Origin: Melghirimyces profundicolus
GTDB lineage: Bacteria; Bacillota; Bacilli; Thermoactinomycetales; DSM-45169
Assembly (NCBI RefSeq): GCF_003054245.1
Contig: NZ_QBKR01000019.1
Location: forward strand, 1-64,000
Direction of reading: 5' to 3'
Length of the DNA: 64,000 nucleotides
Shown: piece after piece, positions 1 through 64,000 of the stretch
Layout of the letters: every line of letters begins with the position of its first letter
Position numbering within the stretch: position 1 is the first letter of the stretch
Made by a program: the position numbers and the translations under genes
The notes under the pieces: model-generated
What the model was told of the DNA's origin: nothing
What the model saw: the letters and a program-made list of their open reading frames with translations, nothing else
Databases searched by the model: none

Positions 1-400
1 ACAAGTCTCGCCTGGGTCGCTCGCTCCCCGGTCTCGCTATGCACTCACAGAGCACAAGTCTCGCCTGGGTCGCTCGCTCCCCGGTCTCGCTATGCACTCA
101 CAGAGCACAAGTCTCGCCTGGGTCGCTCGCTCCCCGGTCTCGCTATGCACTCACAGAGCACAAGTCTCGCCTGGGTCGCTCGCTCCCCGGTCTCGCTATG
201 CTGTCCTGCAGAGATGCAGGAACTGTCCGCTCCGAATCATCCTGCTGCGGGCAGGGGCAAAACGCCTTCGGATGCAACACAGAGAAGCTTTTGCCCCTGA
301 ACGCCCTTGCAGGCTGATTCTCCGCCGGGCAGGACAGCAAAGTCTTATTTTGGGTAAACGCTTCCCCTTTTCTCGAAACGAACATAAAATCACAACGCTT
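1..400 (+). repeat. Interspersed palindromic element, copy A (left end outside window)
   Basis: The first 205 bases hold four head-to-tail copies of a 53-bp unit starting at 1, 54, 107 and 160, with no spacers between them. After the fourth copy the sequence continues into the element core (CTGTCCTGCAG...) and ends at 400 with TCACAACGCTT. The core and end match copies at 41230, 47281 and, inverted, 53687. The left terminus lies before base 1, so the number of 53-bp units is at least four. The element ends about 30 bases before the start codon of the next gene. No coding capacity is conserved: the unit is not a multiple of three. Confidence 0.9.
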
Positions 401-8796: not shown

Positions 8797-11061
8797 GTGA
8801 AAATGGGGAAAACGCTGACCGGCTTGTTGTCGGCCGCCCTTATTCTGGGGGCCGTCGGAGCGCCGGCCGCCTCGGCGGCTCCCGTGGGCGACGGGAAGGC
8901 CGAGGAGCAAGAACACCGTTTCGTTGACTGGGGGACAGTGGATGTGGAGAGACTGTCCAAAGCGCTGATGAAGAGGGGGGAAATCGATAAAGAGACCACT
9001 CCCGAAGAAGTGGAGAAAGCCGTCAAACGGTACGTGGAAAAGAGAAAGATCCCCCATGGGATCGACACCTCCACCAAATGGGGAAGCAAGGCCGAAAAAG
9101 GCCTGAAATCCGTTCAGTCGAAGAATATCAAAAAAGCGAACCGAAAAGGCAACTGGAGCGATCGAATGTACAACAGGGCTCATAAGGATAATATTGTTCT
9201 GGCCCTGATTGAATTCCCCGATTATCAACACAACTCGATTGAACAGGAAGAAGGCAGCCTGTACACCAAGGATTTCAGCCCGGAACACTACGAAAAAATG
9301 CTCTTCAACCCCAAAGGGTACACCACCCCCGAAGGGCTGGATCTGATGACGATGGCGGAGTATTACCTGAAACAGTCCGGCGGCACCTGGACCGTGGACG
9401 GGACCGTCACGCCCTGGATCCAAGCGGAACAGGACGCGGCTTATTATGGGGGGAATAACCAGTACCACAACGACAAAGCTCCCCGGGAACTGGTTCACGA
9501 AACCCTGGAACAGGTGGGAAAAGCGGTCCAGGGGAACGAAGAAAGATATGACCAGCGGGATCCCTATGACCTGGACGGCGACGGAAACGTCATGGAACCG
9601 GACGGCCTCCTGGACAACCTGATGCTGGTTCACTCCGGAATCGGTGAAGAAGCCGGCGGAGGGGAACTGGGAGAAGACGCCATCTGGTCCCACCGCTGGA
9701 CATTGAAGCAGCCGACGGAAATCCCGGGGACCTCCCTGAAAGCCTACGATTACATGATCCAGCCGGAAGACGGGGCGGTGGGGGTGTTCGCCCACGAATA
9801 CGGACACAACCTCGGGCTCCCGGATCTGTATGACACCATCCGCTCCGGGCTGGGCTCTCCGGTCGGGTCCTGGTCGCTGATGTCCGCCGGCAGCTGGAAC
9901 GGAAAGATCCTCGGGACCGAACCCACCGGTTTTGATCCGTGGTCCAAAATGTATCTCCAGGCCACCTTCGGCGGGAAATGGATCACCCCCGTTGAAGTCG
10001 ATTACGAAGACATTCAGGGCAAGCAACAGGTTTTCCTCAACCAGGCCAGCAGTCTCAATCCCCGACGGACGGTGTTGAAAGTAAACCTTCCGGATGTGGA
10101 GAAAGAGCCCCCCACCCAGCCCCAGTACGGGGACCACGCTTACTTCTCCGATTACGGGGATGACCTCAACACCAAGATGACTTCCGGTGAGATCGATCTG
10201 ACGGGCGCCGACTCAGCGGCGTTGAGCTTTGACAGCTGGCGCCAGATTGAGACCGGCTACGACTATCTCTACATTCATGTAATCGACACCGCCACCGGCG
10301 AGAAGACCCAACTCAAAGCCTACGACGATACCACCGGCGGCGAGTGGATCAAGGAGGAGCTGGACCTTTCCGACTTTGTCGGGAAAAAGATTCAACTGCA
10401 GTTCAACTATGTGACGGACGGCGGCTTGGCCATGGACGGCTTCTATGTCGATAACATCGCGGTGGAGGCCGACGGAAAAACCGTGTTTGAAGACGACGCC
10501 GAAGGAGAGCCCAAATTCCAGCTGGAGGGTTTCAAACACTTCGACGGCAGCGGGGAGATGTTCCCCAGTTACTACTTGGTGGAATGGCGCACCCATCACG
10601 GAACAGATAAGGGGCTGGCCCATTTGCGCCGGGGCAGCAGCTTCATCACCTACGATCCGGGAATGCTGGTCTGGCATTACGATGGACGTTACGCCAAAGG
10701 AGCGGATAACCACACCGGCAACCATCCCGGGGAAGGGTTCTTCGGCGTAGTGGATGCCCATCAGCGCGTGCACTACTGGAACAACGATCCGGACAGCCCC
10801 GCCACCGACCGGTACCAGGTATTGGATGCCGCTTTTGGTTTTAATGAAACCTCGGGTGTGGACATCGAAAACTATTACACCTATGGTGACATGCACTATC
10901 CGTCGCTTCCCGGAATCCCCGTTTTCTATGACGGGAACGACTATTCCATGCCGGGCGCGGAAGATGTGGGCAAAATCCTTCCCCAGCTGGGGCTTCAATT
11001 CGAGTTGAAGAAGGAGCTCAGGAAAGGAAAGAGTGCCCTGATCGAAGTTTCCAAGCGGTGA
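8797..11061 (+). CDS. ina: Immune inhibitor A-like secreted M6 metalloprotease
   Basis: 754-residue extracellular zinc protease. GTG 8797 is preferred (AAAGGGG nine bases upstream); it gives a classical signal peptide (KMGKTLTGLLSAALILGAVG, cleavage after PAASA). The pro-region runs to about residue 100; the catalytic zinc motif HEYGHNLGLPD lies near residue 332, with SVGSW-type Met-turn sequence SAGSWNG after it. A beta-rich C-terminal half (GEIDLTGADSAALSFDSW onward) resembles the family's MAM-like domain, then a second lobe with YDPGMLVWHYD. Bacillus homologues degrade antibacterial peptides and are usually secreted in late growth. Monocistronic, flanked by terminators. Confidence 0.9.
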   Translation: MKMGKTLTGLLSAALILGAVGAPAASAAPVGDGKAEEQEHRFVDWGTVDVERLSKALMKRGEIDKETTPEEVEKAVKRYVEKRKIPHGIDTSTKWGSKAEKGLKSVQSKNIKKANRKGNWSDRMYNRAHKDNIVLALIEFPDYQHNSIEQEEGSLYTKDFSPEHYEKMLFNPKGYTTPEGLDLMTMAEYYLKQSGGTWTVDGTVTPWIQAEQDAAYYGGNNQYHNDKAPRELVHETLEQVGKAVQGNEERYDQRDPYDLDGDGNVMEPDGLLDNLMLVHSGIGEEAGGGELGEDAIWSHRWTLKQPTEIPGTSLKAYDYMIQPEDGAVGVFAHEYGHNLGLPDLYDTIRSGLGSPVGSWSLMSAGSWNGKILGTEPTGFDPWSKMYLQATFGGKWITPVEVDYEDIQGKQQVFLNQASSLNPRRTVLKVNLPDVEKEPPTQPQYGDHAYFSDYGDDLNTKMTSGEIDLTGADSAALSFDSWRQIETGYDYLYIHVIDTATGEKTQLKAYDDTTGGEWIKEELDLSDFVGKKIQLQFNYVTDGGLAMDGFYVDNIAVEADGKTVFEDDAEGEPKFQLEGFKHFDGSGEMFPSYYLVEWRTHHGTDKGLAHLRRGSSFITYDPGMLVWHYDGRYAKGADNHTGNHPGEGFFGVVDAHQRVHYWNNDPDSPATDRYQVLDAAFGFNETSGVDIENYYTYGDMHYPSLPGIPVFYDGNDYSMPGAEDVGKILPQLGLQFELKKELRKGKSALIEVSKR

Positions 11062-11073
11062 ACAAGCCCCCGG

Positions 11074-11114
11074 CCCCGGCGTTCGGCTTCGGTTGAACGC
11101 CGGGGTTTGTTTTG
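11074..11114 (+). terminator. Intrinsic terminator of ina
   Basis: CCCCGGCGTTC (11074-11084) pairs with GAACGCCGGGG (11095-11105), followed by TTTGTTTT. Confidence 0.9.
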
Positions 11115-11153
11115 CATCCCATGTGACTTTCCATGCGGGGAGTGAGTCACGGA

Positions 11154-11183
11154 TTGACATCGGGTACGAATCAAAGGTATGAT
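11154..11183 (+). promoter_or_regulatory. Probable promoter of the trehalose operon
   Basis: TTGACA (11154-11159) and TATGAT (11178-11183), 18-bp spacer. A small hairpin with a T-rich tail (AGCCCTTT/AAAGGGCT, 11196-11214) sits just downstream, before the TreR-type operator; it may act as an early attenuator. Confidence 0.65.
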
Positions 11184-11231
11184 CGGAACAGCTGAAGCCC
11201 TTTTTGAAAGGGCTTTCTGTTTGGAGGGCAA

Positions 11232-11245
11232 CTTGTATATACAAG
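11232..11245. promoter_or_regulatory. TreR-type operator
   Basis: Perfect palindrome CTTGTATATACAAG. The core TTGTATATACAA is the known operator of B. subtilis TreR (GntR family), whose homologue is the third gene of this operon. One copy is seen; B. subtilis has two. It lies about 50 bases downstream of the predicted promoter, so repression would be by roadblock unless a second promoter overlaps it. Confidence 0.85.
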
Positions 11246-11321
11246 TATGCAAGATTTTGAACTTCCCGGGTTTAAACCGGGGATACGAAACGTTGAAAAT
11301 GAAACGGGAGCGTGAAGGACC

Positions 11322-12926
11322 GTGCTGAAGAGCCGAAGAATTCCATTTGATTTCTTCCAGCGGGTCGGCCGTTCCATGATGGCCGTCGTGCTGATTCTGC
11401 CGCTGGTCTCCATCCTGATGGGGCTGGGGGGGGTGCTGTTGAATCCCAATGTCCACCAGATTCTGCCGTTCCTGGCCGGAGACGGATTCCAGGCGGCCGG
11501 GGAGCTGATGCAGAGGGCCGGACAGGCGGTCTTCAACAACCTGCCGGTTCTGTTTGCCGTCGCCATCGCCATCACTTGGACCGGAGCGGGGATGGCCGGG
11601 TTTGCGTCGTTGATCGCCTTCTTCATCATGCATACCGTGCTCGGAGCCCTGATTGATATCACCGGTTTGAAATTGAACGAAAAGATGATGGGGGACGAGC
11701 TGGGGATCGAAACGATGCAGACCGGGGTGTTCGGCGGCATCCTGATCGGATTTCTGACCGCCTGGCTGTATAACAAATTCCATCGAACCGAACTCCCCGA
11801 CGCGATCTCGCTCTTCAGCGGGGAGCGTCTGGTGCCGATCATCGCTTCCTTTGCTGCCATCGGTGTGGCCGTTGTCTTTTATTTCATCTGGCCTGCGGTG
11901 GGGATGGCCATCCTGACTCTCGGCCAGTATGTGGCCACTCATACCAACCCCTTGGTGGTCGGTCTGTACGGGGGGATCGAGAAACTGTTGATCCCCTTCG
12001 GCCTGCATCACATCTACAACACGCCCCTTCTCTTCACGGAGATCGGAGCCCATTACGAAACATTGGACGGCTCCCGGGTGGTCGGAGATCAGAACGTCTA
12101 TATCGCCCAGGTGATCGACAAGCTGCGGGATCCTTCCGTGGCCATCACCGGAGGCACTTACATCGCCGGGAAGTTCATCCCTGTCATGTTCGGGTTGCCG
12201 GCGGCTGCGCTGGCGATGATCCGGGTGGCCCGTGAGGACCGGAAGGCGAAAGCCCGCTCTCTGTTGATCGCCGCCGCGGTGACGGCTTTCCTCACCGGGA
12301 TCACCGAACCTCTGGAGTTCACCTTCCTGTTCGTGGCTCCACTCCTGTACGGAGTTCATGCTCTGCTGACGGGACTGGCTTTCGGTCTGGCCAATTTTCT
12401 CGGCATGAAAGCCGGCTTTGCCGGCGGATCGGGCTTGATCGACTTCGTTCTCTTTAACGTGTTGCCCAACCCTTCCAACGCATGGATTCTGACCATCGGT
12501 CTGGGTCTGGTGTTCGGAGTCGTCTATTACTTCGTCTTCCGTACCCTGATCCTGGCTCGGGACTTGAAGACGCCGGGGCGGGAAGAAGAAGGGGAGGAAA
12601 CCCGCTTGTTCACCAAGGAAGAAGCCCGGGAGAAGATGGGAATTACCAAGGGCGGACACCGGAAGGCGGACGAAAAAGCTGATGACAGCCGGGCCGCCCG
12701 CATCCTGACCGCTTTGGGCGGAAAGGGCAACATCACCAAACTGGACGCCTGCATTTCCCGGCTTCGCGTCGGGGTGAAGGACCGCGACCGGGTGGACGAG
12801 GCAGCCCTCAAACAAGAGGGGGCCTCCGGTGTCCTGCGCGTGGCCGACGGGGTGCAGGCCGTCTTTGGTACCCGCTCTTCCGTCATTAAGGAAGAAATCC
12901 GCGAGCTGCTGGAGAAGGAGGAATAA
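11322..12926 (+). CDS. PTS transporter subunit EIICB, trehalose/alpha-glucoside type
   Basis: 534-residue membrane sugar permease. Residues about 1-410 are the glucose-superfamily IIC channel (start FFQRVGRSMMAVVLILPLVS; GITEPLEFTFLFVAP is the conserved sugar-binding loop); residues about 445-534 form IIB with the phosphorylated Cys in ITKLDACISRLRVGV. There is no IIA, so phosphate must come from another IIA-Glc protein. The operon (hydrolase plus TreR) argues for trehalose, but B. subtilis TreP has the order IIB-IIC, whereas this protein has the IIC-IIB order of glucose/maltose permeases. GTG start with a weak upstream GGGAG. Confidence 0.85.
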   Translation: MLKSRRIPFDFFQRVGRSMMAVVLILPLVSILMGLGGVLLNPNVHQILPFLAGDGFQAAGELMQRAGQAVFNNLPVLFAVAIAITWTGAGMAGFASLIAFFIMHTVLGALIDITGLKLNEKMMGDELGIETMQTGVFGGILIGFLTAWLYNKFHRTELPDAISLFSGERLVPIIASFAAIGVAVVFYFIWPAVGMAILTLGQYVATHTNPLVVGLYGGIEKLLIPFGLHHIYNTPLLFTEIGAHYETLDGSRVVGDQNVYIAQVIDKLRDPSVAITGGTYIAGKFIPVMFGLPAAALAMIRVAREDRKAKARSLLIAAAVTAFLTGITEPLEFTFLFVAPLLYGVHALLTGLAFGLANFLGMKAGFAGGSGLIDFVLFNVLPNPSNAWILTIGLGLVFGVVYYFVFRTLILARDLKTPGREEEGEETRLFTKEEAREKMGITKGGHRKADEKADDSRAARILTALGGKGNITKLDACISRLRVGVKDRDRVDEAALKQEGASGVLRVADGVQAVFGTRSSVIKEEIRELLEKEE

Positions 12927-17569: not shown

Positions 17570-17723
17570 AAGCGTTGTAAAAAAGTGAGCGGCAGCATTT
17601 ACCCAAAGCCGCTCCGGCTGCACTCACAGAGCACAAGTCTCGTCTGGGTCGCATCACTCCCGGTCTCGCTATGCACTCACAGAACACAAGTCTCGCTTGG
17701 GTCGCTTGCGCTCCCCGGTCTCG
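17570..17723 (+). repeat. Interspersed palindromic element, copy B (truncated)
   Basis: Starts AAGCGTTGTAAAAAAGTGAG, continues through the left arm (TTTACCCAAAGCCGCTCC) and two diverged copies of the 53-bp module, then breaks off at GGTCTCG. The core and right terminus seen in other copies are missing, so this is a 3'-deleted relic. Occupies the gap between the small basic gene and map. Confidence 0.85.
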
Positions 17724-53686: not shown

Positions 53687-54043
53687 AAGCTTGTGATTGA
53701 ATGTTCGTCTCGAGAAAAGGGGAAGCGTTTACCCAAAATAGCGACTTTGCTCCTGCCCGGCGGAGAATAGACTGCAAGGGCGTTCAGGGCAAAAGCTCCT
53801 CTGTGTCGCATCCGAAGGCGTTTTGCCCCTGCCCGCAGCAGGATGATTCGGAGCGGACAGTTCCACCATCTCTGCAGGACAGCATAGCGAGACCGGGGAG
53901 CGTAAGCGACCCAGGCGAGACTTGTGCTCTGTGAGTGCATAGCGAGACCGGGGAGCGAAGCGACCCCAGGCGAGACTTGTGCTCTGTGAGTGCAGCCGGA
54001 GCGGCTTTGGGTAAATGCTGCCGTTCACTTTTTCACAACGCTT
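53687..54043 (-). repeat. Interspersed palindromic element, copy E (inverted, two modules)
   Basis: 357 bp in the opposite orientation to the other copies. Read on minus it starts AAGCGTTGTGAAAAAGTGAA, has the left arm, two 53-55-bp modules, the complete core and ends ATCACAAGCTT (one G lost). The right end begins directly after the CDF stop codon. With the recJ leader it fills the 476-base gap between genes. Confidence 0.92.
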
Positions 54044-59027: not shown

Positions 59028-59446
59028 ATCGCTACCCGAGTTGGGGGAAGGGGTGCGCCACGGAAGTGCTGTGTCTTCTTTGCACCTGGCCTCACTCAAC
59101 CTCCGGGTGATCTCCTTCAACTCCTATGGGAAGGGGATCTTACCCAAAACGGCAATCCGGTTGACGGGCCTGTTGAGAAGCGAGTGGCATCCCGGCAAAG
59201 AAAAAGTCTGCGGCAATCAAGCCGCAGACTTTGTTTTTCATTCTTCATGGAGTGTCGGGCAAAATCCCACTTCTTTTGTCGAATCCCCGAAAATTTCTCT
59301 TAACCCTCGACACCCTTCCCTCCCGCCGCGGGAGCAGGCGGGAATTGTTATCGTTTTCAACTGTCGGCCGTTGTCGGATATGAACGATCTTTTTAATAAA
59401 TCTTAAAACAAGCATCATTGTGAAATGGAGGGATATCCATTAGCAT
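59028..59446. other. Intergenic region with one terminator
   Basis: The only clear element is the terminator at 59203-59242. Around 59128-59150, AAGGGGATCTTACCCAAAA resembles one arm of the palindromic repeat and may be a remnant. AT-rich sequence from about 59380 likely holds the promoter of the DUF4912 operon, but no hexamer pair is convincing. Confidence 0.45.
59203..59242. terminator. Terminator after the MFS gene
   Basis: AAAGTCTGCGGC / GCCGCAGACTTT with loop AATCAA, then GTTTTT. Confidence 0.9.
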
Positions 59447-60115
59447 ATGGTCATGATCGATTGGAATGACAGGAAGGGAGCGGACAGGAAACCGGTGGGA
59501 GAAGTGGAACGCAGAACAGCAGCTCTTCAGGGTTTGACGGAGGATGGGAGTCCGCGGGGGGAGGACGAATGGAACAAAACCTTGTTCGACGAATCCTGGG
59601 TCCGGCGGGGGCCCGCCGACCGGCTGGTATTGATGGTGAAGGATCCCTGGACCCTTTTTGCTTACTGGACCGTGGAAGAGTGGCGGAAAGGGATGGTCGG
59701 AGAACATTTTGAAACGGAGTGGGGCGGGCTTCCGTTTTCGCTTCGCCTCCATCAGGTCAATGATCCGGAATATAACGGGGAGAACGCCCGGTTCACTTCT
59801 ACGGCGGATGTGCATCCCGGCCGGGATCGTTGGTATTTTCGCGGAGTGGAGCCGGGGAGGAGATATCTGGCCGAATTCGGCACATGGACAATTCACGGGG
59901 AATTTTTCGCGATCCTCCGCTCCAATGTGACGGAGACCCCGCCCGAACCGGAGTCGGCGGGCGAACCTTCCGTCCGGTTCCGGAAGATGGAACCGGTCCC
60001 GGGCGGTCCTTCGGGGAAAAGGGGCGGGGCCTTTCCCGGGAGCGACGAACCCTGGAGCGAATCCTTTGACGGATACTCTCTCCGGGAGGACGGGAAGAGG
60101 GGGGAGAAACAATGA
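59447..60115 (+). CDS. DUF4912 domain protein
   Basis: 222 residues. The central part (about 55-165) is the DUF4912 domain: DRLVLMVKDPWTLFAYWTVE, then FSLRLHQVND, RWYFRGVEPGRRYLAEFGT. It looks like a beta-sandwich similar to carbohydrate-binding modules of branching enzymes. The C terminus (about 165-222) is charged and Gly/Pro-rich. It overlaps the GH57-GT4 gene by four bases, so a role in glucan synthesis, perhaps as binding partner, is likely. Start among ATGs at 59447/59453 is uncertain because the GAGGG site is rather far. Confidence 0.8.
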   Translation: MVMIDWNDRKGADRKPVGEVERRTAALQGLTEDGSPRGEDEWNKTLFDESWVRRGPADRLVLMVKDPWTLFAYWTVEEWRKGMVGEHFETEWGGLPFSLRLHQVNDPEYNGENARFTSTADVHPGRDRWYFRGVEPGRRYLAEFGTWTIHGEFFAILRSNVTETPPEPESAGEPSVRFRKMEPVPGGPSGKRGGAFPGSDEPWSESFDGYSLREDGKRGEKQ

Positions 60116-62946
60116 CACAGGGGTGGTTCAACCTGGTGCTTCACGCGCACCTTCCTTTTGTTCGCCACCCTGAGCGGGAGGATGCCCTGGAAGAGCGGTG
60201 GCTCTTTGAAGCGATCACGGAAAGTTATGTGCCGCTTTTGAACGTGTTTCAGGGGTTGGTGAAAGACGGGATGGATTTCCGGGCGACCGTTTCCCTGTCC
60301 CCAACACTCCTCACCATGCTGACCGACCCCCTGCTGCAGGAACGTTTCCTCCGGCATATTGACCGTCTGATCGAGCTGGCGGGGAAGGAACGGAAGCGGA
60401 CGACCGGGAGGCCGGAGTCGGAGTACCACCGGCTCGCCCGGATGTATGGGGACCGGTTCACCTCAGTCCGGGAATTCTTTCTGCGATACGGGGGAGATCT
60501 GACCGTTCCCTTCCGGGAACTCCGGGAGGGGGGGAAGTTGGAGCTGATGACTTCCACCGCCACCCATGCCTTTCTGCCCCTGATCCGGAGGGAAGAGGCG
60601 GTCCGGGGACAACTCCTCACCGCCGTTCACACCTTCGAAAGGATCATGGGGTTCCGGCCGAAGGGGATCTGGCTGCCGGAGTGCGGCTTTGCTCCCGGTC
60701 TGGACCGGCTGGTGAAAGAATGCGGCTTGGATTACTTTTTCACCGATCACCACGGGTTGGCCACCGCGGAACCCCGCCCCTTGTTCGGAGGGCTCTCTCC
60801 GGTGATTTCACCCCACGGGACGGCGGTGTTCGCCCGGGACCCCGCCGCGTCGGAACAGGTGTGGAGTTCGGAGAAGGGGTATCCCGGAGATTCGGATTAC
60901 CGGGAATATTACCGGGACATCGGGTTCGATCTGGAGCTGAAACATGTGGGACCGTACATCCATCCGGAAGGGATCCGGGTACACACGGGGATGAAATATC
61001 ACCGGATCACCGGGGAAGGGAAAGAGAAAGAGCCCTACGACCCGGACCGGGCACGGGAAAAAGCCGCCGAACACGCCGAACATTTCCTCCGGGAACGCGT
61101 GAGGCAGGCAGGGAAAGCCCGGGAACGGAAGGGCCGGGAGCCGGTCATCACCGCACCTTATGACGCGGAATTGTTCGGGCATTGGTGGTACGAAGGGCCG
61201 GTGTTCCTCGACATGCTGTTCCGCAAAATGCATTCTGACCAGGAAGTGATCCGGCCCGCCACCCCGTCGGAGATACTGGCCCGATTCACCGGTCTGCAGA
61301 AGTGCCGCCTTTTCATGAGTTCCTGGGGGCGTCACGGGTATGCCGATGTGTGGCTCCGGGAGGAAAACGATTGGATCTATCCGGTTCTGCACCGGGCGGA
61401 GGAGCGGATGATCCATCTCGCCGACCGGGCGGAACACCCCGCCGCTTTGGAACGGCGGGCGCTGAACCAGGCGGCCCGGGAACTGATGCTGGCCCAAGCC
61501 AGTGACTGGGCCTTTATTCTGGATGGGAAGACCGTGGTGGAGTATGCGTTGAAACGGATCAAGCACCATCTGAACCGATTCGACCGCCTCGCCGACATGG
61601 TGGAGATGGAAAAGGTGGAGGAAGGTTGGCTGGTGAAGGTGGAAGAACTGGATCCGGTCTTCCCGGAATTGGATTACCGCTGGTTCCGCTCCCGCCACCC
61701 CGTGGTGCACCGCCGTCAGGAAAAGGGAACGCCCCGTTTGTTGATGCTTTCCTGGGAGTTTCCTCCGATGACCGTGGGCGGTCTTTCCCGGCATGTTTTC
61801 GACTTGTCCCGATGGCTGGTCAAAAACGGGTGGGAAGTCCATGTGATTACCACTGAAGTGGAGGGCTATCCCCATACCGAGACGGTGGAGGGGGTCCATG
61901 TGCACCGGGTCCACGTGATGAAGCCCTTCGGCAAGGAATTTCAGCATTGGGTGTTCCAGTTGAACCTGATGGTGACGGATGCGGTGGATACCCTCGTGAA
62001 GAGCGGTCTGTCTTTTGACTTGGTTCACGCCCACGATTGGTTGGTGGCGCCGGCGGCCAAAGCGATCAAACATCGTCACCGACTTCCCCTGATCGCTACG
62101 ATTCACGCGACGGAACACGGTCGGAACGGCGGTATCCGTACCGGGTTGCAGCGCAGGATCCACGGGTTGGAACGAAATCTCACCGAAGAAGCCTGCCGGG
62201 TGATCCTGTGCAGCCAATATATGAAAGAGGAAGCGAGGCGCCTGTTTGAGCTTCCGGATGAGAAGATGCGGGTGGTGCCCAACGGAGTGGACCCGGTGAT
62301 GCTGCGGTTCAGCGGTGCCGGCAAGCAAAAGGAGCCTTTTGCCTTGGAAGATGAACGGATCATTCTCTTCATCGGACGTCTGGTGCCGGAGAAGGGGGTT
62401 CAAACCCTCTTGGAGGCGGGGGAGAAAATCCTGCCGGCACACCCCGACGTTAAGCTGGTGATCGCCGGCAAAGGGCCGATGAAGGAAGCGTTGGAAGCGG
62501 AAGCCCGAAACCGGGGTCTGGGTGAGAAAGCGATGTTCACCGGGTTTATTTCTGACGAGGACCGGAACCGGCTGTTGAATGTGGCCGATGTGACCGTGTT
62601 CCCCAGCCTCTACGAACCTTTCGGCATCGTGGCCCTGGAGGGAATGGCGGCGGGAACCCCGGTGGTCGTTTCCGACACGGGCGGGTTGGCCGACGTAGTC
62701 GACCACGGACGGACCGTCCTGAAATCCCTCCCCGGGGATGTGGATTCGCTGGCACTTCAGATTCAAACCCTCCTGTCGGATCCGGAACGGGCCCGACGGA
62801 TGGCGGAGTCGGCCCGGGCGGAAGTGGATCGGTTCGATTGGAACCGGATTGCCCGGCGGACGATCGAAATATATGGAGAAGCGCTCCCTTCCCGACGGAG
62901 GACGGAATCGCGGCTGGCAGCCCCGACGGCCGGGGAACCCCGGTGA
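60112..62946 (+). CDS. GH57 alpha-glucan branching enzyme fused to GT4 glycosyltransferase
   Basis: 944 residues, two enzymes in one chain. Residues about 1-530 form a GH57/DUF1957 domain: LHAHLPFVRHPE (motif 1), IWLPECGFAPG (about 184-195, catalytic Glu) and ITAPYDAELFGHWWYEGP (about 346-363, catalytic Asp) indicate 1,4-alpha-glucan branching. Residues about 540-930 are a GT4 domain of the glycogen/starch-synthase type: LLMLSWEFPPMTVGGLSRHV, VHAHDWLVAPAAK, FIGRLVPEKG (about 752) and PSLYEPFGIVALEG (about 831) with the EX7E motif. Fusion suggests chain elongation coupled to branching. Sits in an operon with the DUF4912 gene and a nucleotidyltransferase. Confidence 0.88.
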   Translation: MTQGWFNLVLHAHLPFVRHPEREDALEERWLFEAITESYVPLLNVFQGLVKDGMDFRATVSLSPTLLTMLTDPLLQERFLRHIDRLIELAGKERKRTTGRPESEYHRLARMYGDRFTSVREFFLRYGGDLTVPFRELREGGKLELMTSTATHAFLPLIRREEAVRGQLLTAVHTFERIMGFRPKGIWLPECGFAPGLDRLVKECGLDYFFTDHHGLATAEPRPLFGGLSPVISPHGTAVFARDPAASEQVWSSEKGYPGDSDYREYYRDIGFDLELKHVGPYIHPEGIRVHTGMKYHRITGEGKEKEPYDPDRAREKAAEHAEHFLRERVRQAGKARERKGREPVITAPYDAELFGHWWYEGPVFLDMLFRKMHSDQEVIRPATPSEILARFTGLQKCRLFMSSWGRHGYADVWLREENDWIYPVLHRAEERMIHLADRAEHPAALERRALNQAARELMLAQASDWAFILDGKTVVEYALKRIKHHLNRFDRLADMVEMEKVEEGWLVKVEELDPVFPELDYRWFRSRHPVVHRRQEKGTPRLLMLSWEFPPMTVGGLSRHVFDLSRWLVKNGWEVHVITTEVEGYPHTETVEGVHVHRVHVMKPFGKEFQHWVFQLNLMVTDAVDTLVKSGLSFDLVHAHDWLVAPAAKAIKHRHRLPLIATIHATEHGRNGGIRTGLQRRIHGLERNLTEEACRVILCSQYMKEEARRLFELPDEKMRVVPNGVDPVMLRFSGAGKQKEPFALEDERIILFIGRLVPEKGVQTLLEAGEKILPAHPDVKLVIAGKGPMKEALEAEARNRGLGEKAMFTGFISDEDRNRLLNVADVTVFPSLYEPFGIVALEGMAAGTPVVVSDTGGLADVVDHGRTVLKSLPGDVDSLALQIQTLLSDPERARRMAESARAEVDRFDWNRIARRTIEIYGEALPSRRRTESRLAAPTAGEPR

Positions 62947-62979
62947 CGAAACAAAGAAGAAAGGAGTTTGAAGCGATTC

Positions 62980-64000
62980 ATGAAAGCTGTGATCATGGCC
63001 GGAGGGAAAGGAACCCGTCTGCGCCCCCTGACCAACCGTCTTCCCAAGCCGATGGTTCCCCTTTTGGATAAACCTTGCATGGAGTACATCATCGAGCTGT
63101 TGAAGCGGCATGGGATCACGGATATCGCGGTGACGATGCAGTATCTGCCCCAGGTGATCCAAAGCCACTTCGGCGACGGATCGGATTTCGGGGTGAGACT
63201 GCACTATTTTGAAGAAGGTCATCCCCTTGGCACGGCGGGAAGCGTGAAGAACGCGGAGGCGTTCCTGGATGACACCTTCGTCGTGATCAGCGGAGACGCC
63301 CTGACGGATGTGGACCTGGGCCAAGCGGTCGCTTTCCACCGGGAACGAAAGACTTGGGGCACCCTTGTGCTGAGCCGGGTGGAGGTGCCGCTGGAGTACG
63401 GGGTGGTGATGACCCGGGAGGACGGGAAAATCACCCGATTCCTGGAGAAACCCAGTTGGAGCGAAGTGTTCAGCGATACGGTCAACACCGGCATTTACGT
63501 GATGGAGCCCCAAATCCTCTCCCTGTTCGAAAAAGGGAAGCCCTTCGACTTCAGCAAGGATCTGTTTCCCCTGATGATGGAGCGGCATCTGCCCCTTTAC
63601 GGACATGTGGCGGAAGCGTATTGGTCCGATATCGGCAACCTGAAGCAATACCGGCAAGCCCAGCAGGATTTGCTGGAGGGGCGGGTACAGGCGGATATCA
63701 AGGGGGAAGAGGTATTCCCGGGGATCTGGTTGGGCGAAGGGGCCGATGGGATCGATTGTTCTTCCGTCACCCCGCCGGTCTTCATCGGGGCGGGAAGCAC
63801 CGTTCACCCCGAAGCCCACATCGGTCCCCACACCGTGCTCGGTCAACAGAGCCGGGTGGAAGCCGGAGCCGCTGTGGTCCGGTCGGTCCTCTGGAACCGG
63901 ACATCCGTCGGGGAGGCGTCATCCTTGGATGGATCCACCCTGACCCACGGGGGGCGGGTGGGACCGGGAGCCATTCTGGAAGAGGAGACGGTGATCGGGG
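62980..64000 (+). CDS. Sugar-nucleotidyltransferase (GlmU/ManC/GlgC-like), partial
   Basis: At least 340 residues, running off the window end. MKAVIMAGGKGTRLRPLT and PKPMVPLLDKP are the nucleotide-binding signature of NDP-sugar pyrophosphorylases; SGDALTDVDL and EYGVVMTREDGKITRFLEKP follow; from about residue 245 there is a left-handed beta-helix (GAGSTVHPEAHIGPHTVLG). Several Firmicutes carry this as the first part of a mannose-1-phosphate guanylyltransferase/phosphomannomutase-like fusion; the rest lies outside the window. It could make the nucleotide sugar used by the upstream GT4 enzyme. ATG 62980 chosen; TTG 62968 is in frame. Confidence 0.88.
   Translation, partial: MKAVIMAGGKGTRLRPLTNRLPKPMVPLLDKPCMEYIIELLKRHGITDIAVTMQYLPQVIQSHFGDGSDFGVRLHYFEEGHPLGTAGSVKNAEAFLDDTFVVISGDALTDVDLGQAVAFHRERKTWGTLVLSRVEVPLEYGVVMTREDGKITRFLEKPSWSEVFSDTVNTGIYVMEPQILSLFEKGKPFDFSKDLFPLMMERHLPLYGHVAEAYWSDIGNLKQYRQAQQDLLEGRVQADIKGEEVFPGIWLGEGADGIDCSSVTPPVFIGAGSTVHPEAHIGPHTVLGQQSRVEAGAAVVRSVLWNRTSVGEASSLDGSTLTHGGRVGPGAILEEETVIG

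Follow-up and report, generated by a model that had tools for sequence, protein, structure and literature searches.

A DUF4912 protein and a GH57-GT4 fusion in one operon of Melghirimyces profundicolus: a candidate alternative route to branched alpha-glucan

Genes for a GT4 glycosyltransferase and a GH57-type enzyme are grouped in the mycobacterial cluster Rv3030-Rv3037c, as described in excerpts of two papers (PMC2674218, PMC4555173). In the route to methylglucose lipopolysaccharide set out in the same excerpts, elongation falls to Rv3032 (GT4) and the first alpha-1,6 link was assigned to Rv3031 (GH57) (PMC2674218, PMC4555173); part of a later paper proposes Rv3031 as a glucosylglycerate branching enzyme (PMC10708623). 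GH57 branching enzymes are themselves split by a flexible loop with a Tyr, and an excerpt of PMC10346327 puts the share of enzymes without this loop at 92%. In that excerpt, amylose branching amounts to 10.5 mU/mg for the loop-less TmGBE57 (AmyC) against 550 for the loop-bearing TkGBE57, each enzyme having been produced in E. coli from a separate vector (PMC10346327). Excerpts of PMC6616209 and PMC10346327 describe AmyC as a member of the loop-less class with weak branching in vitro, and the former names the Cys after the catalytic Glu in conserved region CSR-3 as a mark of GH57 branching enzymes.

We analyzed a window of 64,000 nucleotides (bases 1-64000 of a 74,284 bp contig in the 3.77-Mb genome of M. 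profundicolus), at the end of which genes for a DUF4912 protein, a GH57-GT4 fusion and a nucleotidyltransferase follow one another (Table 1). A first, sequence-only reading had described the three as overlapping or tightly linked, and this is borne out: the first two genes share 4 nt (ATGA), the third begins at 62968 (TTG) or 62980 (ATG), 21 or 33 nt past the fusion stop, and all lie on the plus strand. The fusion start is preceded by a purine-rich stretch that resembles a ribosome site. Extending the sequence past position 64000, as that reading had proposed, gave the complete nucleotidyltransferase of 806 aa (8968-11388 of locus L002, the same contig extended past the window) and then a GH15-like gene (L002 12184-13230). 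Because a 55-bp repeat array and a terminator-like hairpin separate these two genes, the latter may belong to a separate transcript. The array has 9.4 copies (L002 11445-11958) and is one occurrence of a 53-55-bp tandem repeat (GACTTGTGCTCTGTGAGTGCATAGCGAGACC...) that is also present at window positions 1-201, 17619-17723 and 53882-53994. Several of the listed places of this repeat are at contig ends, and a genome search allowing up to 2 mismatches matched its 31-base core 246 times and a reversed control 0 times.

Table 1. Features of the operon and of the fusion protein. Nucleotide positions are those of the window; residue numbers are those of the fusion.
Feature	Position	Strand	Basis or remark
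Terminator-like hairpin and T tract	59203..59232	+	between upstream MFS gene and operon; consensus match only
DUF4912 protein, 222 aa	59447..60115	+	PF16258, 84.5 bits vs gathering cut-off 29.4
ATGA start/stop overlap, DUF4912 and fusion genes	60112..60115	+	sequence
GH57-GT4 fusion, 944 aa	60112..62946	+	Pfam domains, all over cut-off; alignment to other fusions
GH57 catalytic barrel, short catalytic loop	60133..61290	+	nucleophile E190 (codon 60679-60681), acid/base D351 (codon 61162-61164)
BE_C helical domain of GH57 branching enzymes	61387..61686	+	PF09210, 126.1 bits vs cut-off 25
GT4 domain	61774..62820	+	R756/K761 and E835-x7-E843 motif
Nucleotidyltransferase with hexapeptide repeats	62968..64000, runs beyond window to 806 aa	+	degenerate phosphomutase domain at its C-terminal half
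Glyco_hydro_57	residues 8-393		Pfam, over cut-off
BE_C	residues 426-525		Pfam, over cut-off
Glyco_transf_4	residues 555-728		Pfam, over cut-off
Glycos_transf_1	residues 744-903		Pfam, over cut-off

Both parts of the fusion carry the marks of their families. On the GH57 side, the branching-enzyme motif WLPEC with E190 (Cys after Glu, CSR-3) is accompanied by D351; on the GT4 side, the marks of retaining-type enzymes are present as both GT-B halves, the R/K pair and E-x7-E. For a wider view of these residues we used a set of loci (set 1) comprising the best 80 matches to the window protein in a scan of GTDB genomes plus relatives of the window, a set that is biased to near homologues because of how it was built. 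Its two duplicate pairs (L049 = L060, L052 = L088) were reduced to one member each for the residue counts, so that 59 rows became 57 fusion-type proteins; the clustering of 88 loci cited below still included L049 along with L060. The GH57 Glu is conserved in 55 of the 57 and the Asp in 53, both being intact in 53 proteins including that of the window, while the GT4 Arg, Lys and both Glu are conserved in all 57. The GH57 residues are lost in two degenerate chains of genome G009 (locus L054) and the acid/base Asp in Paenibacillus copies of L080 and L087. Positions 7160-18280 of L054 hold a cluster of DUF4912, the two degenerate GH57-GT4 chains and a nucleotidyltransferase. With its catalytic residues present, an inactive GH57 domain appears to be ruled out for the window protein.

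In a sequence comparison with the PDB, the GH57 half comes closest to AmyC of Thermotoga maritima (2b5d, 491 bits), against 242-291 bits for loop-bearing enzymes of Pyrococcus, Thermococcus and Thermus. An AlphaFold model of the whole fusion (mean pLDDT 87.9, pTM 0.63) likewise retrieves AmyC first in a fold search (TMt 0.93), followed by other GH57 structures and then by GT-B enzymes led by MshA. The fusion stays below the cut-offs of two equivalog models named for Thermococcales and Thermus enzymes, NF041133 (338.9 vs 1000 bits) and NF041566 (304.2 vs 920). The candidate activity of the window GH57 domain is alpha-1,6 branching.

The glgBCDAP operon has the same presumed task of alpha-glucan elongation and branching, but the M. 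profundicolus genome differs from its carriers in that GlgA, GH13 GlgB, GlgC and GlgP were all undetected. Searches for GT5 GlgA in this genome returned only cross-hits to GT4 proteins, and none of the 42 genomes of the order holds a GlgA over the cut-off, which is strict, since only 7 of 14 control genomes reach it. The four GH13 proteins of the genome are two phosphotrehalases, one neopullulanase/cyclomaltodextrinase-like and one pullulanase-like protein, and the families listed for them include no branching enzyme. Its six NTP_transferases (two RmlA-like, one GalU, one GlmU, one weakly matching small protein and the operon's own) all score under the GlgC cut-off, and no glycogen phosphorylase (GlgP) was found in it by a search that was positive in 12 of 14 control genomes. 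On these searches we rejected classical glycogen genes elsewhere in the genome, and the fusion is therefore the only visible alpha-glucan synthase or brancher that the genome has. The sequence-only reading had set the system apart from glgBCDAP; with none of these genes found, it does look like a separate route. That reading had also named a complete glgBCDA cluster together with a GT4 specific for another acceptor, or else inactive GH57 residues, as observations that would speak against it; no such cluster was found in the genome, and the residues are present.

The fusion is not unique to this genome, since GH57 and GT4 lie in one chain at 43 of 79 related loci among the matches listed in the GTDB scan. 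The window protein can be aligned over its full length to 37 other fusions (41-60% identity) and is therefore not a chance product. Within the order the fusion is patchily distributed, with fusions above 40% identity in 8 of 42 genomes, the window's included. A same-genus genome that is 100% complete (G011) has no fusion, only GT4 relatives, so the function of the fusion is dispensable in the genus. A GT4 gene of the same family was found near 14 of 51 stand-alone GH57 genes; L054, a degenerate fusion, and L158, whose fusion is truncated where the stretch ends, were excluded from the count. A profile built from the fused GT4 gives these neighboring GT4 proteins 292-545 bits; BLAST with the fusion as query, a different score from profile bits, gives at most 124 bits for any other GT4 protein of the window genome. 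The same GT4 thus occurs both fused and near unfused GH57, and such gene fusion is a classic indication that the two enzymes work together. Five Paenibacillus loci (L074, L075, L080, L087, L089) carry two successive units of DUF4912 plus fusion, and in L080 and L087 it is the first copy that is without the acid/base Asp. No description of a GH57-GT4 fusion was found in the literature searched, most subscription journals being outside its coverage. Rv3031/Rv3032 resembles the window pair, in excerpts of the mycobacterial papers, by joining genes for a GH57 branching-type enzyme and an alpha-1,4-glucosyltransferase of GT4, a resemblance judged by description; it differs in that the window pair is encoded as a single chain, preceded by DUF4912 and followed by a nucleotidyltransferase-pseudomutase. 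We regard the fused polymerase as a novel form of this already known GH57/GT4 pairing.

The mycobacterial parallel bears on the nature of the product, which could be a short branched saccharide of defined structure, built on a special acceptor and comparable to methylglucose lipopolysaccharide, instead of a storage polymer. Besides the pairing of GT4 and GH57-type genes in the excerpted Rv3031/Rv3032 cluster, such a product would suit the joint presence of stand-alone-sized and fusion-sized GH57 open frames in 21 of 114 genomes with listed rows, where the fusion is therefore not simply the only branching enzyme. Against it stands the search for GpgS (glucosyl-3-phosphoglycerate synthase), for which no protein of the genome passes the cut-off and the best reaches 77.5 bits vs 262. 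We regard a short saccharide as possible but rather improbable, and a branched, starch-like polymer, made by a fusion that unites chain building and branching in one protein, is what these sequences probably indicate.

Of the sequence-only reading, which is partly upheld overall, elongation of an alpha-glucan by the GT4 half is a putative element. The GT4 active-site residues are present, but the cut-offs for both GT4- and GT5-type glycogen synthases are missed: the best curated glycosyltransferase model, TIGR02149 (GlgM/GT4-type glycogen synthase), gives 155.6 bits vs 302.4, and TIGR02095 (GT5 glycogen synthase GlgA) gives 88.4 vs 328.45. GlgM/GlgA of the GT4 type thus provides the best curated model and also the best PDB chain by sequence (6tvp); unlike it, the GT4 half lies under the cut-off, has MshA ranked above by fold and is fused to GH57. 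Solved structures among its GT4 neighbors include MshA, BshA, sucrose-phosphate synthase, GlgM and GlgA, and the sugars transferred by such relatives range over glucose, GlcNAc and mannose.

Phosphohexomutases (PGM/PMM) are characterized by a phosphoserine loop and a Mg loop. The third gene of the operon is not an ordinary sugar nucleotidyltransferase, a reading we rejected because its PGM/PMM-like second half, which the window does not show, has no mutase motifs. In 30 aligned homologues of more than 700 aa (one duplicate locus dropped), the nucleotidyltransferase motif GGxGxRLxPxT is present in all 30, and neither mutase loop in any. The best model for the full 806 aa is that of mannose-1-phosphate guanylyltransferase, NF052502 (251.7 bits, cut-off 440), and GlgC TIGR02091 gives 110.6 bits (cut-off 424.9); with the mannose model above GlgC and both under cut-off, the sugar donor that the protein would make is uncertain. 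GH15-like genes recur near the loci, in a short form at 10 of 88 and a long form at 25 of 88, as counted from similarity clusters of which one member each was named by Pfam. The mannose model would agree with a GT4 that transfers another sugar, for example mannose, onto a surface glycan, with GH57 as a trimming or binding module, and related chains in which GH57 is degenerate (L054) or the barrel is absent (L055, L058) point the same way. The intact GH57 residues in 53 of the 57 fusion-type proteins, the window's included, and the recurrent GH15-like genes argue against this, and we consider transfer of another sugar unlikely.

DUF4912 is a domain family without a described function: full-text searches gave one incidental mention of DUF4912 and none of PF16258, and a literature search found no paper on TM1437/TM1438. 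The structure model of the window protein has pLDDT above 90 in blocks of residues 61-170, and residues 58-168 are predicted to form an FnIII-like beta-sandwich. It matches FnIII domains (Foldseek best E 2.7e-6; Z up to 10.3), and the DUF4912 profile matched only fibronectin among PDB sequences (best E 8.4e-5). In a comparison with starch-binding modules of the CBM20/CBM48 type, FnIII domains fill the fold lists and no starch-binding domain is among the matches listed. The sequence-only reading had cast DUF4912 as a possible glucan-binding subunit of the GH57-GT4 protein; of this, the role of partner is backed, by gene order and by two single-chain fusions, and glucan binding is a putative function.

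The linkage is close and widespread. In the similarity clustering, DUF4912 is near a GH57 gene at 80 of 88 loci and on its strand in 85 of 85 open frames, and by profile search 86 of the 93 GH57 genes in set 1 have it on their own strand no more than 400 nt away; six genomes of the seven exceptions were searched, and all six hold DUF4912 somewhere. Across a sample of 249 genomes of the window's phylum, comparison of the two genome lists places DUF4912 in 120, GH57 BE_C in 118 and both in 116 (Fisher p 2e-63, kinship ignored). Among 150 listed DUF4912 rows, 133 precede a same-strand BE_C by no more than 2.5 kb, 4 follow one, 10 have no BE_C row on the contig and 3 are otherwise placed, although two of these three (G274, G253) do precede a same-strand BE_C, the script having picked a nearer divergent one. 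Conversely, 137 of 150 listed BE_C rows have a same-strand DUF4912 within 3 kb and 13 do not. In the two single-chain fusions, DUF4912 is joined to GT4 and a BE_C-like stretch but there is no GH57 barrel (L055 9070-11229, minus strand; L058 8612-10747, plus strand). By eye, both loci have a similar gene for 510-545 aa and a methyltransferase-like gene nearby. In L053 (11085-12635, minus strand), a NosD-like beta-helix protein with a weak C-terminal DUF4912 (27.5 bits, cut-off 29.4) adjoins a second GH57-GT4 gene. In Omnitrophota (L102, L105, L106, L109, L115, L136), the DUF4912-GH57 pair is followed by look-alikes of UppS, CdsA, Dxr, RseP and IspG, again named by eye.

The presence of DUF4912 also goes with the lack of the long catalytic loop in GH57; we read the loop from alignments as the Glu-to-Trp spacing across it. 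This spacing is 61 in the window GH57, as in AmyC, and 87 in TK1436, so the long Tyr-loop is absent from the window protein. AmyC thus resembles the GH57 half both as its best PDB match and in loop spacing, and differs in standing alone without a GT4, whereas the window GH57 is fused. Where DUF4912 adjoins, the loop is short in 73 of 73 GH57 genes (spacing 50-62), these being 71 of the 137 together with G239 and G286; L156 (region absent), G112 (contig end) and G190 (BE_C, no listed place) were left out of the reading. Of the 13 BE_C rows that have no DUF4912 close by on their strand, 10 are long-loop genes (spacing 81-98), and the other three are all at contig ends: G239 (short loop, with a truncated DUF4912 at the contig edge), G136 (likewise short) and G112 (unreadable). 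Eight of the 10 long-loop genes are head-to-head with a DUF4912 that precedes a second GH57, and this second GH57 is loop-less in all eight. The arrangement is seen in L139 (2439-7113), L140 (2273-7239) and L141 (1803-6261), with five more genomes alike. Control genomes agree with the loop pattern in Thermotoga maritima (DUF4912 and BE_C) and Thermus composti (BE_C without DUF4912); Synechococcus elongatus has both, and Bacillus subtilis a DUF4912 match without BE_C. As counter-points, DUF4912 also adjoins the long-loop gene, on the other strand, in eight genomes, and seven genes of set 1 with a short loop are not directly preceded by DUF4912. The genes with a long loop fall into a single clade, with one change on the tree (local support 100), and therefore supply only one independent contrast between loop and DUF4912.

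These data qualify the description of the fusion as a self-contained polymerase. GH57 and GT4 do lie in one chain with their residues intact; self-sufficiency, however, is weakened because branching by the AmyC class is weak in vitro, according to the excerpts cited above, and DUF4912 accompanies this loop-less class whether fused or not. We tentatively suggest that DUF4912 could be the missing second subunit of loop-less GH57 branching enzymes, giving in trans what the Tyr loop gives in cis. If so, loop-less enzymes would seem weak since they were assayed alone, and the GH57-GT4 chain of the window together with DUF4912 would be a complete elongating-and-branching complex. A DUF4912 unrelated to GH57 chemistry, kept beside it by inherited gene order, would fit the single event on the tree and the 4 of 249 genomes that hold DUF4912 without BE_C (in one of which, G219, it still adjoins a degenerate GH57-GT4 relative at L156), but is quite unlikely given same-strand linkage that recurs, whether GH57 is fused or not, in Bacillota, Omnitrophota, Deltaproteobacteria, Nitrospirae and others, and given the in-cis fusion of DUF4912 to the BE_C-GT4 part in two genomes. 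As a lead, the pairing of DUF4912 and loop-less GH57 is stronger and more novel than the fused polymerase.

Collectively, the gene anatomy, the intact residues, the lack of a classical pathway in the genome, the recurrent fusion, the GT4 genes near unfused GH57 and the pairing of DUF4912 with loop-less enzymes lead us to favor, with moderate confidence, an operon that would make a branched alpha-glucan by a route independent of glgBCDAP. The sequence-only reading was right in what it observed, and its alternative glucan synthase is retained at that same moderate strength. We propose that the nucleotidyltransferase-pseudomutase protein activates a hexose-1-phosphate to an NDP-sugar, from which the GT4 domain might extend an alpha-1,4 chain. 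The loop-less GH57 domain, linked covalently to the GT4, could then cut this chain and rejoin it as an alpha-1,6 branch, or trim it, while the FnIII-like DUF4912 protein would bind the GH57/BE_C-GT4 body and position the acceptor chain. Finally, the product is potentially trimmed or recycled by the GH15-like enzyme. Should one chain both elongate and branch, it would amount to a compact alpha-glucan synthase in a genome without detected glg genes. Moreover, our data point to a specific and testable role for DUF4912 and suggest why loop-less enzymes such as AmyC may perform poorly in vitro.
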